From an uncultured Verrucomicrobiales bacterium (lineage in GTDB: Bacteria > Verrucomicrobiota > Verrucomicrobiia > Verrucomicrobiales > Akkermansiaceae), in contig CALFVF010000012.1 in NCBI GenBank assembly GCA_937928735.1, positions 62,001-126,000 of the forward strand: 64,000 bases of DNA, read 5' to 3'. Shown in pieces: positions 55,366 to 58,833 of the stretch; positions within the stretch are counted from its first letter, which is position 1, and every line of letters begins with the position of its first letter. The notes beneath the pieces were generated by a model. It was not told the DNA's origin. It made no database searches and saw only the letters and a list, made by a program, of their open reading frames with translations. The position numbers and the translations under genes were made by a program.

Positions 55366-55998
55366 ATGTTGATGCGTTTATGGATAGTCTGTTTTCTCGT
55401 GTGCTATAGTGGCTCAGTGATACAGGCGGCGTCTGTGAAGTTGGCAGATGGCTTTGACTTTCCTGTTGGTAAACCAGATGCCAAGAAGTACTACAAAGCA
55501 CGCGGCATGCGCCTGCGACCTCCCGTGCACTTTGGCGAAGACTGGAATGGCAAGGGTGGTGGAAACACCGACTTAAATGACCCTATCTATACTTGTGCCA
55601 GCGGGATCGTGGTGTTTGCCCATGATTGTCGAGGAGGTTGGGGGCGTGTGCTGATCATACGCCACGCCTACCGTGGTAGTGATGGGAAAGTGAAGTACTG
55701 TGATTCTCTCTATGGACATCTTCGCACGATGTCTGTGAAACTCGGTGATACTGTTGAGCGTGGTCAGCAAGTGGGCACTATGGGTAATAACAGAGGGATG
55801 TATGCCGCCCACCTGCATTTCGAAATTCGCCATAACCTCTCCATTGGAATGCACCGAGAGAGTGTGCCGCGCAATACCACCAATTGGGCAGATCCGACAG
55901 GCTTCATACGCAAGCACCGAACCCTAAAAAGCGGGTTTAAGAAGGTGAAATTACCAATGGGAACATTTAAAGAGTACAAGGGCTCAAAAGGACTCTAA
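55366..55998 (+). CDS. Secreted M23-family (LytM-like) metallopeptidase
   Basis: The 210-residue product has a signal peptide (residues 1-21, ending QAA) and a LytM domain. The zinc site appears as H55 and D59 (VHFGEDW) and the H149-L-H151 pair (AAHLHFEIR), with H118 in LYGHLRT as the catalytic His. It probably cuts peptidoglycan crosslinks or is a regulator of amidases. It follows uppP and precedes a nuclease gene by 18 bp. Confidence 0.92.
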   Translation: MLMRLWIVCFLVCYSGSVIQAASVKLADGFDFPVGKPDAKKYYKARGMRLRPPVHFGEDWNGKGGGNTDLNDPIYTCASGIVVFAHDCRGGWGRVLIIRHAYRGSDGKVKYCDSLYGHLRTMSVKLGDTVERGQQVGTMGNNRGMYAAHLHFEIRHNLSIGMHRESVPRNTTNWADPTGFIRKHRTLKSGFKKVKLPMGTFKEYKGSKGL

Positions 55999-56016: not shown

Positions 56017-56766
56017 ATGGCAAAGAAGCAGAATATCTCAAAGGGGCGCATCGTGCTGACAATCGTCATCGCCGTTGCCGCTTGGTACTTTAATGAGCAG
56101 AAGAAGACGGATAAGGAAGCCGCCCAGTATGCCGATAGTTCCCAAGGATCAGAGTTATCTTCAGAAGCTCAGCAGGGAGGCTCATCCAGCGTGTCTGTGG
56201 ATGTAGCAAAAGGAAATGAGGGTGGTGTGAAAGTCAAATTCACTCAGCCGAAAATCAGCTCAAAAAAATGGGATGTCCTAGATGGCTGCCAGCTCGTGAA
56301 GCATAGGCATAATGATGGCGACAGCTTCCACGTGATCGATGGAGGAGGAAAGAAAACGGAGTTTCGACTCTACTTTGTTGATACGCCAGAGAGTCGCCTA
56401 CACCAGTACAATGGAGAGCGTCTTGATGAACAGGCACAGTACTTTCAGACAGACCGCGATGCGGTGATTGGCGTGGGAAAGGCCGCGAAGGCATTTGTCC
56501 TGGACCTTTTAGAAAAAGAACCATTCCAAGTGGTGACTCAGTGGGAGAATGTCTACGGCCCCGAGCGGAAGTACTGCTACGTGATTGTGAAGTGGGGTGG
56601 TCAAGAGGTCTATCTGCACGAGCTTCTTGTTTCAAAAGGCCTCGTTCGGATTCACACAAAGCCAATGACTCTGCCTGATAACACCTCAAGTAGTCGCCAG
56701 CGCAAGCGCCTCTATGAGATACAGGATAAGGCAAAGTCTGCCGGTATCGGCGGCTGGGGCGTTTAG
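56017..56766 (+). CDS. Membrane-anchored staphylococcal-type nuclease
   Basis: The 249-residue product has an N-terminal signal anchor (about 12-26), a Ser/Gln-rich linker (about 30-75) and an SNase domain. Catalytic segments are visible in HNDGDSFHVI, FRLYFVDTPESR (Arg and Asp) and the C-terminal ELLVSKGLVRIH block. It probably degrades extracytoplasmic nucleic acid and is tethered to the inner membrane. A small membrane-protein gene follows. Confidence 0.9.
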   Translation: MAKKQNISKGRIVLTIVIAVAAWYFNEQKKTDKEAAQYADSSQGSELSSEAQQGGSSSVSVDVAKGNEGGVKVKFTQPKISSKKWDVLDGCQLVKHRHNDGDSFHVIDGGGKKTEFRLYFVDTPESRLHQYNGERLDEQAQYFQTDRDAVIGVGKAAKAFVLDLLEKEPFQVVTQWENVYGPERKYCYVIVKWGGQEVYLHELLVSKGLVRIHTKPMTLPDNTSSSRQRKRLYEIQDKAKSAGIGGWGV

Positions 56767-57270: not shown

Positions 57271-57726
57271 CTACTTTCCTTTGGTTTGGTTTTCAAATGT
57301 AGAGGTCACTCCCCAACGAATCTGCTTAGATTCAAAAAAATCAGCCCACTTGTTTGACCAATATCCACCTTCACCTTCGCACAACTCAAATCCTTTGAAA
57401 TTAGTTTGAGCTAGTTTCAAAATAGAGCATTCATCACTATCGACATTGTATCCTTGATGACTGAGTGCCTGACATAAGTGGTGCACATCTAGCAGCATTC
57501 GGGCTAGTTGATAACGTGACTCTCCATCTAAGATAACAGTCGAGTCTTTAACCTTCAGCGAGCAAAGGTAAGAGATCGGATGCTCGTGCTTTGTGACAAT
57601 ATCATATGATGAAGCCAGACCCTCGACATGTACTGCAAGACCTTTTGATGGTATGCCTCTCTGATCCTCGCCAAAAGTATGTGATACAAGTAATAGCGCG
57701 ATACCGACAAGGGCGAGAAGTTTCAT
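57271..57726 (-). CDS. Secreted small Cys-containing protein of unknown function
   Basis: The 151-residue product has a signal peptide (hydrophobic core at about 3-15, cleavage near TFGED). The mature part contains four Cys (in SYLCSLK, HHLCQAL, DECSILK and FELCEGE), which could form two disulfides, and a helix-rich middle. I do not recognise a family. It is the last gene of the minus-strand run below the carboxypeptidase. Confidence 0.65.
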   Translation of the reverse strand: MKLLALVGIALLLVSHTFGEDQRGIPSKGLAVHVEGLASSYDIVTKHEHPISYLCSLKVKDSTVILDGESRYQLARMLLDVHHLCQALSHQGYNVDSDECSILKLAQTNFKGFELCEGEGGYWSNKWADFFESKQIRWGVTSTFENQTKGK

Positions 57727-57768: not shown

Positions 57769-58488
57769 CTAGTGAGAATGCGACAAGGAATGAGAGAGTG
57801 AAATCTCGTGAAGCTCTGGTGCACTGCTATGCTCTGGAAATTCTCTCAGGTACTCCCAGTGAGTGGCCTGATCAGAGACAGAGATTCGGCTAGTGCTCCA
57901 TGTCTGGGCATCATCTCTGAGCATTCTCACAGTATACGCACTAGAGGTGCTGTCTTCCCGACCACGGTGATAGCTCCAGTGTTCTGCGGCTGAGTTAGGG
58001 GTGATGGGTTGATAGTCTCTGAGGCGACTTTTGGCCACATCTTGGAAGCGGTAGGATGAGCTGGTGAGTGGAGGTGAGGGTGTGACTTCAGTGACTTCTG
58101 TGCCATTCCACTCATAGGCACGGATACAGGAATGATCCAGGGCGACGATGGTGAAGGGGCGGGTGTGCTGGAGAGAGTGAAGATGAGAAGAGAGTTCTTT
58201 GGCACTCTGGAGGTCTGCGAGACTGAGTACGAGCTGGCCTCGGCTGAGAGTTTGCTTTGTAGTGCCACCTTGCTGGTGCCATAGGTTGAGTAGAGCGATG
58301 GTCACGCCGTAGTGATTACTCAGCATCCATGTGCCACCAGCATCGGGGTCGGTGGGTGCGAGGAAGCGCGTTGAGTCCTCAGTGGTCTGAAGTGTGGGTG
58401 GGAGAGCTTCGCTGCGAGTTTTTAGCTCATCTCGATTAAAGAGTACGTGATAGCCCTCGGACTCACGCCACCATGTCATGGTACACAT
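57769..58488 (-). CDS. NRDE-domain (TANGO2-like) protein
   Basis: The 239-residue product begins with MCTMTWWRESEGYHVLFNRDE, giving the N-terminal Cys and the NRDE motif that define this family; a further hallmark is GGTWMLSNHYGV. Family members resemble N-terminal nucleophile hydrolases and eukaryotic TANGO2, which is linked to haem and lipid handling; bacterial roles are unknown. It starts 10 bp after the stop of the candidate selenoprotein gene on the same strand, so the two are likely cotranscribed. Confidence 0.88.
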   Translation of the reverse strand: MCTMTWWRESEGYHVLFNRDELKTRSEALPPTLQTTEDSTRFLAPTDPDAGGTWMLSNHYGVTIALLNLWHQQGGTTKQTLSRGQLVLSLADLQSAKELSSHLHSLQHTRPFTIVALDHSCIRAYEWNGTEVTEVTPSPPLTSSSYRFQDVAKSRLRDYQPITPNSAAEHWSYHRGREDSTSSAYTVRMLRDDAQTWSTSRISVSDQATHWEYLREFPEHSSAPELHEISLSHSLSHSH

Positions 58489-58497
58489 AAAGGATAT

Positions 58498-58833
58498 TTA
58501 TTGAGAATTCTTAGAAGAGCTACCAAGGCTAGGGGCTTGGGTAGAGTCTGGAGCTTGAGGCTCCTTTGCTGCCGTAGCTGTGGTTTCTGATGTCTGAGTT
58601 GAGTCGACCGACTCACAGGATCCAGACATTCAGGTGGAAACGCCCATGGCAGGCAGTATCCAGAGCTGAAGCGCGAAGTAGAAGGCGAAAGCTCCGATGA
58701 TAAAGAGCAGAGAGAGTCCTTCTGAGCCAGTTTTTGGTGGATCGGCTGCAGCTTGGGCTGAGGCTGAGTCTTGAGAGGTAGACTCTGCTGCTTGAGTACC
58801 GTGAGAATCAGAAGTGTGAGAATCTGAAGTCAT
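58498..58833 (-). CDS. Candidate selenoprotein: small membrane protein with in-frame UGA (Sec-x4-Cys)
   Basis: The frame runs from ATG 58833 to TAA 58500, interrupted by one in-frame TGA at 58632-58630 (codon 68). Read as selenocysteine, the product is 111 residues: a Ser/Thr/Gln/Ala-rich N terminus (1-38), one membrane helix (about 41-61), then WILPAMGVST, Sec68, MSGSC with Cys73, and a Ser/Thr/Gln-rich tail. Composition is continuous across the TGA and there is no frameshift. Directly after the TGA lies a SECIS-like hairpin (separate entry). Sec-x4-Cys next to a membrane helix suggests a redox role. If the TGA is a true stop, the product is a 67-residue membrane protein followed by a re-initiated 43-residue frame with ATG immediately after the stop. 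The selenoprotein reading is an inference from sequence and structure. Confidence 0.62.
58590..58629 (-). promoter_or_regulatory. Candidate bacterial SECIS element immediately after the in-frame UGA
   Basis: On the minus strand, a lower 7-bp stem ATGTCTG/CAGACAT (58629-58623 with 58596-58590) starts at the first base after the UGA. An upper 6-bp stem TGAGTC/GACTCA (58615-58610 with 58605-58600) carries the tetraloop GGTC (58609-58606). The loop is 20 nt from the UGA, inside the 16-37 nt window of known bacterial SECIS elements, and the GGUC loop matches the E. coli fdhF apical loop sequence that SelB reads. Confidence 0.6.

Follow-up and report, generated by a model that had tools for sequence, protein, structure and literature searches.

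One gene on the minus strand of the window (the whole 64-kb stretch of DNA that was analyzed) very probably encodes a selenoprotein, in which an in-frame UGA is read as selenocysteine (Sec). This reading, already proposed in a first-pass annotation of the same DNA, is supported by the relatives of the gene, by homologues that have Cys in place of Sec, by a SECIS hairpin, and by selA, selC and selD in the genome. The reading frame was confirmed as uninterrupted over 112 codons, with a single internal stop (TGA) and a TAA end (Table 1). Gene finders would cut the protein short at the UGA; read mechanically, 58630-58833 is a 67-aa ORF. Residues around the UGA are ILPAMGVST-U-MSGSC, so that the Sec-x4-Cys motif described earlier (U-M-S-G-S-C) is present, and the tail past MSGSC is of low complexity and without conservation. 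Using AlphaFold2 with a 6-row alignment, a single confident helix was predicted at residues 38-63, with the rest at low confidence (mean pLDDT 60), in agreement with the membrane helix that had been placed ahead of the UGA.

Table 1. Coordinates of the putative selenoprotein gene, its recoding signals, its neighbor and selD
Feature	Position	Strand	Details
Selenoprotein gene (very probable)	58833..58498	minus	111 residues including Sec68, ends in TAA; low-complexity N-terminal segment, predicted helix ~38-63, U-M-S-G-S-C, Ser/Thr/Gln-rich tail
In-frame UGA, codon 68, inferred Sec	58630..58632	minus	UGA at this motif position in 78 loci, Cys in 3
Bacterial SECIS-like element	58590..58629	minus	Fold, covariation in relatives, slide control
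SECIS upper stem, 6 bp	58615-58610 with 58605-58600	minus	GGUC loop 58609-58606
TANGO2-like (NRDE) gene	57769..58488	minus	Pfam PF05742, E 1.5e-09, above cut-off
selD	L130 1501-2427 (own genome G000:C18:50248-51174)	+	TGA 1531-1533, CGG-U-ASKLDP

The first 45 nt past the window TGA were predicted to fold at −14.9 kcal/mol. The hairpin consists of an 8-pair lower stem (7 Watson-Crick pairs and 1 G-U), an asymmetric internal loop, and a 6-bp upper stem (TGAGTC/GACTCA) closed by a GGTC loop that starts after 20 nt. The nested hairpin of the first-pass annotation was therefore recovered in its asymmetric loop, its upper stem and the place of its GGTC; the lower stem has 8 pairs, not 7. The loop of the E. 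coli fdhF SECIS is also GGUC. In the published bacterial SECIS model, as given in PMC13188914, a loop of 3-9 nt, with G in the first two places, sits on a stem of 4-16 bp, 16-37 nt from the UGA, with an MFE ≤ −7.5, and the window hairpin fits this model in its loop, stem, distance and energy. Taken alone, the fold is moderately unusual when compared with mononucleotide shuffles (z −3.20 for 45 nt and −1.97 for 55 nt). When every TGA on both strands of the window was scanned, four were followed by a family-type loop on a stem of at least 5 bp, and of these only the TGA of the window gene has a long open frame on either side (72 codons ahead of it and 44 to the next stop). The other three have 0, 4 and 12 open codons ahead of them. 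An Rfam search of 14 kb around the gene returned no SECIS match and only one chance lncRNA hit.

Among relatives of the window gene, the UGA was found at the same motif position in 78 loci from 75 genomes of four taxonomic families (f1, f2, f6 and f94). Among 39 genomes, the window's own included, that were searched with Cys in place of the UGA, 14 had matches and 12 had the gene with a UGA at the same place; matches without the motif (G005 at two places, a second place in G022, and G025) were excluded from this count. Within the window's taxonomic family, 66 of 260 genomes had a match (65 in the UGA form and 1 in the Cys form). The order-level search gave members in two f6 and seven f2 genomes (64 of 386 genomes matched, one of them, G463, spuriously; it lacks the motif and was dropped before counting). 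Outside the order, where 17 of 384 genomes matched, members were present in three f94 genomes, as one UGA form (G833, GLRTUMSDGCSVEQ) beside two Cys forms. When genomes were drawn evenly across the phylum and searched with an earlier profile, 5 of 387 matched, one of them doubtful, so the UGA-bearing membrane family looks concentrated in the window's part of the phylum; a G199 match in that draw was dropped for want of the motif. The most divergent member, G011, was matched in the family search (5.3e-5) and not in the order-level search. A match in Salipiger thiooxidans (L026, from a contig scan of named genomes) covered only a short QAAADPPKT with no membrane or UGA motif and was put down to chance. 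Most of the genomes sampled are drafts.

Conservation across the 78 loci is strong ahead of the UGA, and a few residues are conserved beyond it. The frame stays open past the UGA in all 78, mostly with an MSGxC-like sequence or a further UGA. Three genomes have Cys at the UGA position, namely G383 (GVPTCASGAC), G944 (GVRTCMSCCC) and G782 (GVQTCMSCCC); all three read straight through and keep the Cys at +5, as had been put forward as support for Sec. A third residue at this position was not found among the relatives kept. Homologues that end at the UGA position, which had been named as evidence against Sec, were absent from the matches, though so short a piece would score weakly.

The recoding hairpins were then compared over the 116 UGAs judged to be Sec codons, a set in which only the first TGA of the f2 and f94 loci was counted and in which the number of Sec per locus was assigned partly by reading of the sequence. 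SECIS geometry (a stem of at least 4 bp, G in the first two loop places, and a start 17-26 nt after the UGA, inside the 16-37 nt of the model) was found at 109 of the 116, and at 102 when the energy limit was added. For control TGAs in any frame, the corresponding counts were 1895 and 1136 of 4000, and geometry alone is thus a permissive test. Hairpin stability was more discriminating, with a ΔG ≤ −5 kcal/mol at 97/116 UGAs vs 260/4000 controls. Seven UGAs failed the coded geometry, six in genus g215 (unbroken stem shorter than 4 bp) and UGA 2 of G004. The loop was of a recognized type in 103 of the 107 contexts that were looked at first (GGTC 49, AGGTG 23, CGGGT 13, AGTT 8 and others 10).

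Pairing was preserved across different sequences. In stem-loops picked by loop letters alone, positions 2-6 paired at 92% (437/475), compared with 40-62% when the 3′ arm was slid. For the tetraloop hairpins, 43 distinct stem-loops with at least 3 pairs were tabulated, such that pairs 1-3 are paired by selection and pairs 4-6 are free. Pairs 4, 5 and 6 counted from the loop were standard in 38, 32 and 39 of the 43, and the sixth pair occurred as C-G, A-T, G-C, T-A, G-T and T-G, that is, as all six standard types. Synonymous-codon shuffling of the sequence after the UGA gave a mean z of 1.74, with 48 of 105 distinct contexts at or below 0.05, as against z values of −0.25 (4/63), −0.14 (5/64) and 0.33 (6/65) at shifted control places, which indicates a hairpin stronger than the protein requires. 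The RNA also leaves its mark on the protein. A recurrent Pro-Val-Gly motif (CCGGTCGG) results from in-frame translation of the SECIS loop, and its conservation was taken as RNA-driven for that reason. In genus g9, most loci have a first stem whose 3′ arm reaches into the second UGA (TGTCCTC-AGGTG-GAGGATG-A, e.g., L040 9479-9514), so the first hairpin must open before the second UGA is decoded.

The Sec machinery that was to be looked for in the window's own genome was present in three of its four parts. These are selA (493.8 bits), tRNA-Sec (selC, 59.8 bits, anticodon UCA by reading) and selD (372.7 bits); the last carries an in-frame UGA in a UxxK context, and the selenophosphate synthetase of this genome is thus itself a probable selenoprotein. 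Neither the TIGR00475 profile, for which the best match was EF-Tu, nor a search with the SelB of a relative recovered the fourth, selB, from the assembly, which is 93.9% complete in 40 contigs. An assembly gap is the likeliest cause, given the completeness, the 40 contigs and the presence of the other three parts. Across the 260 genomes of the taxonomic family, 59 had both the UGA form and selB, 6 the UGA form only, 10 selB only and 185 neither. Thus selB was present in 59 of the 65 UGA-bearing genomes, with the window's own counted among the 65 (Fisher p about 1e-40, a value that overstates independence because the genomes are related). Completeness of the five other UGA-only genomes is 65-88%, and SelB-matching fragments occur in two of these (G590 and G591). 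In the Cys genome G383 (96% complete), the relative's SelB query gave no match above EF-Tu level (~30% identity, best 94.6 bits).

Two other readings of the UGA were weighed against Sec. Were it a genuine stop, the product would be a membrane peptide of 67 residues, and the frame that follows would be open by chance or as a remnant. The mechanical ORF call, the missing selB and the low-complexity tail would all suit such a peptide, but it would leave unexplained a frame that stays open in 78 loci and mostly runs into MSGxC-like sequence or another UGA, a covarying hairpin held within a narrow distance range after the UGA, three Cys homologues that read through, and a genome that still has selA, tRNA-Sec and a selD with a UGA of its own. 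We consider a genuine stop very improbable. Decoding as some other residue, through Trp or near-cognate readthrough or a changed code, is harder to address by the open frame, which cannot by itself identify the residue inserted. It is, however, opposed by the ordinary use of TGA in the window, where this codon terminates 7 of the 48 ORFs of at least 150 aa in the mechanical list, which argues against a changed code. All three UGA-less homologues found have Cys, the UGA form tracks selB, and the hairpin obeys bacterial SECIS rules, and this second alternative was accordingly given almost no weight. Reading of the UGA as Sec is retained in what follows.

Family proteins are 47-111 residues long, depending on the start chosen, and have one helix. 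In most members, the helix is followed by P-x-x-[GS]-[VIL]-x-x-U and then by a tail without predicted fold that extends 17-69 residues past the first Sec. The family proved broader than the first-pass annotation had allowed; its selenoprotein reading stood, and it missed members with two, three and four UGAs as well as the Sec-Sec counterpart of U-x4-C. Among 77 loci, one Sec was counted in 42, two in 33, three in G004 and four in G565. In G565 (L098, G565:C82), QSGSTU is repeated three times at 12-residue (36-nt) steps and each of the four UGAs is followed by a hairpin, which marks the unit as a tandem cassette. G004 (L124, G004:C55) has three in-frame UGAs, the second without a clear SECIS. 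The second UGA of G011 is uncertain, lying three codons before a TAG. Several later in-frame TGAs were rejected as Sec codons (among them those in APU/TPU contexts in g215 and the last TGA in G270, G021, G018, G562, G599, G029 and G036) and taken as true stops because the TANGO2 gene or unconserved sequence comes next.

In order to identify a partner for the first Sec, Cys was sought within +9 or −8 and a further Sec within +30. Over the 77 loci, which predate G833 (a locus with Cys at +5), the partner was Cys at +5 in 37, Cys at +6 in 1, Cys at −5 in 4 and a further Sec, at +10 to +29, in 35, a tally that uses the Sec numbers assigned partly by reading. The four Cys −5 loci (G552, G554, G556 and G560) belong to one genus and have no Cys at +5. 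Within the stretches searched, the kinds of partner never overlapped and no locus was without one; of all the evidence, this mutually exclusive pattern speaks most strongly for a redox pair. A selenylsulfide or diselenide pair beside a single membrane helix therefore seems probable from the residue pattern. Charge gave little indication of topology: K+R were in excess ahead of the helix in 26 loci and behind it in 17, and balanced in 34.

The TANGO2-like gene begins 9 nt past the selenoprotein stop codon on the same strand and is a probable operon partner of the window selenoprotein. BLAST clustering placed such a gene downstream at 29 of the 70 loci examined, from 7 genera and on the same strand in all 29; by motif search, the count is 24 of 70, with some loci cut by contig ends. 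The TANGO2-like neighbor is therefore not fixed across the family. A VTT-domain gene lies downstream in 18 genomes, a DoxX gene upstream in 3, and an AhpC/TSA gene downstream in G029. In 11 genomes of genus g12 (e.g., L038), a truncated haemoglobin-like gene (Bac_globin) lies just upstream on the same strand, and no downstream TANGO2-like gene was seen at these loci. Elsewhere in the window, a 151-aa uncharacterized protein with a signal-peptide-like start by eye (57271-57726, minus) is the next gene beyond the TANGO2-like one on the same strand; on the plus strand, 55366-55998 resembles an M23-type peptidase and 56017-56766 a thermonuclease, both by eye only.

A sequence of events can be proposed for the window gene. 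On arrival of the ribosome at UGA codon 68, the downstream hairpin with its GGUC loop would recruit SelB with Sec-tRNA, and translation would run on to the TAA; these steps are the ones that the sequence supports. The N-terminal part would then anchor the protein through its single helix, and the tail would probably lie on the non-cytoplasmic side. Sec would lie a few residues past the membrane, where it could pair reversibly with the Cys at +5 as a selenylsulfide or, in relatives that have a second Sec, with that residue as a diselenide. Such a protein may serve as a selenol/thiol redox relay or scavenger that is tethered to the membrane and partnered with the TANGO2-like protein, and a TANGO2-linked membrane redox role is offered as a working guess. 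For the family as a whole, we lean toward a model in which the number of Sec has grown by tandem copying of the SECIS hairpin together with the next UGA, as in G565, giving membrane-tethered tails with one to four Sec. In this model, the 3′ arm of a stem may enter the next UGA, the loop (CCGGUCGG) imposes a spurious Pro-Val-Gly on the protein, and the tails would serve as diselenide/selenylsulfide devices for a TANGO2-linked membrane process.

Two other functions were considered. Animal selenoprotein P serves in selenium carriage and storage, and Sec here might likewise serve to carry or store selenium or a metal, with extra Sec copies carrying more selenium. The variation from one to four Sec, the three further UGAs of G565 at regular steps, a modeled tail of low confidence without a fold, and the lack of a known domain in the 12 members scanned would fit this. 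Most loci, however, have only one Sec (42/77) or two (33/77), and both the exclusive Cys-or-Sec partner, which is never missing, and the C-x4-C of the Sec-less relatives fit redox better, which leaves storage or carriage quite unlikely. A place in a haem-handling pathway, where the protein would protect or reduce haem or cytochrome c at the membrane together with the TANGO2-like protein (and with a globin in another genus), is suggested by the downstream TANGO2-like genes in 7 genera, by the upstream Bac_globin in g12, and by the bacterial TANGO2 homologue HtpA, for which haem binding and an aid to cytochrome c maturation are reported (PMC10470608). The haem role of TANGO2 is nevertheless disputed, with bioenergetic failure and oxidative stress proposed instead (PMC12782551); other loci adjoin DoxX or AhpC/TSA genes, and a shared neighborhood is a hint only. 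Haem handling was judged unlikely, and the selenylsulfide/diselenide pair remains the preferred reading.

The family had been called undescribed in the first pass, and as far as was searched it is apparently new. With Cys put for Sec, 12 members gave no credible Pfam or NCBIfam match, the best scores (NCBIfam E 0.0041, 17.6 bits against a cut-off of 47; Pfam E 0.045) coming from one member each and from unrelated families. None of the 119 families in Table 1 of a 2026 review (PMC13188914, the table being compared by names, domain ids and motifs, not by sequences) was a fitting counterpart. A UGA-bearing membrane family of this kind was not found described in the titles and opening abstract lines of the literature searched, a set with few subscription papers and no preprints, and it is not mentioned in text passages of PMC12013277, PMC1088965, PMC2398784 and PMC4807772.

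Bacterial selenoproteins are often found via their Cys homologues, and in the deep-Sep approach proteins without such homologues may be filtered out (PMC12013277). The Cys-homologue route would tend to miss this family, which has a very short frame, lacks a known domain and showed 78 UGA loci but 3 Cys forms. Its description adds a selenoprotein family to a bacterial group in which selB was present in 69 of the 260 genomes sampled, and links selenium to the disputed TANGO2 proteins. Related short genes with one to four UGA-SECIS units form a natural series for testing how SelB decodes closely spaced UGAs, and the alternative partners (Cys at +5, Cys at −5 or a second Sec) make selenylsulfide and diselenide chemistry comparable on one scaffold.

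The family was compared with several described systems. For GOS_A and GOS_B, Cys forms outnumber UGA forms (155 vs 2 and 125 vs 11, respectively; PMC2398784), the opposite of what is seen here; GOS_A itself is not in Table 1 of PMC13188914. As in bacterial SECIS selenoproteins such as FdhF/FdhA, a hairpin whose small loop contains G directly follows the UGA, and Sec-synthesis genes are present, but the window family has no known enzyme domain or thioredoxin fold, only one helix and a tail. It differs likewise from thioredoxin-like selenoproteins (UxxC/CxxU) in its UxxxxC spacing and its one helix, as modeled by AlphaFold2 (mean pLDDT 60). The SGGGUG of the family's two-Sec members resembles the SGUG of the two-Sec selenobacteriocin (TIGR04081), although none of the 12 scanned members matched that profile at E up to 1. 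A small subset of prokaryotic families has two or three Sec, according to PMC13188914, where Table 1 includes a UxxU Prx-like protein, MbdU, TsoB with UxxxxU, and an arsenite methyltransferase/AhpD fusion with three Sec. The window family shares with these more than one Sec per chain, and differs in reaching four (at one locus) and in a number that varies among very short proteins; most of its UGAs have their own hairpin. Eukaryotic selenoproteins K and S are likewise small and cross the membrane once, and their Sec sits in a disordered tail rich in Gly and Ser (GGxUG-like motifs). Their decoding differs in its use of a SECIS in the 3′UTR, and the likeness of the window family to them is probably convergent.
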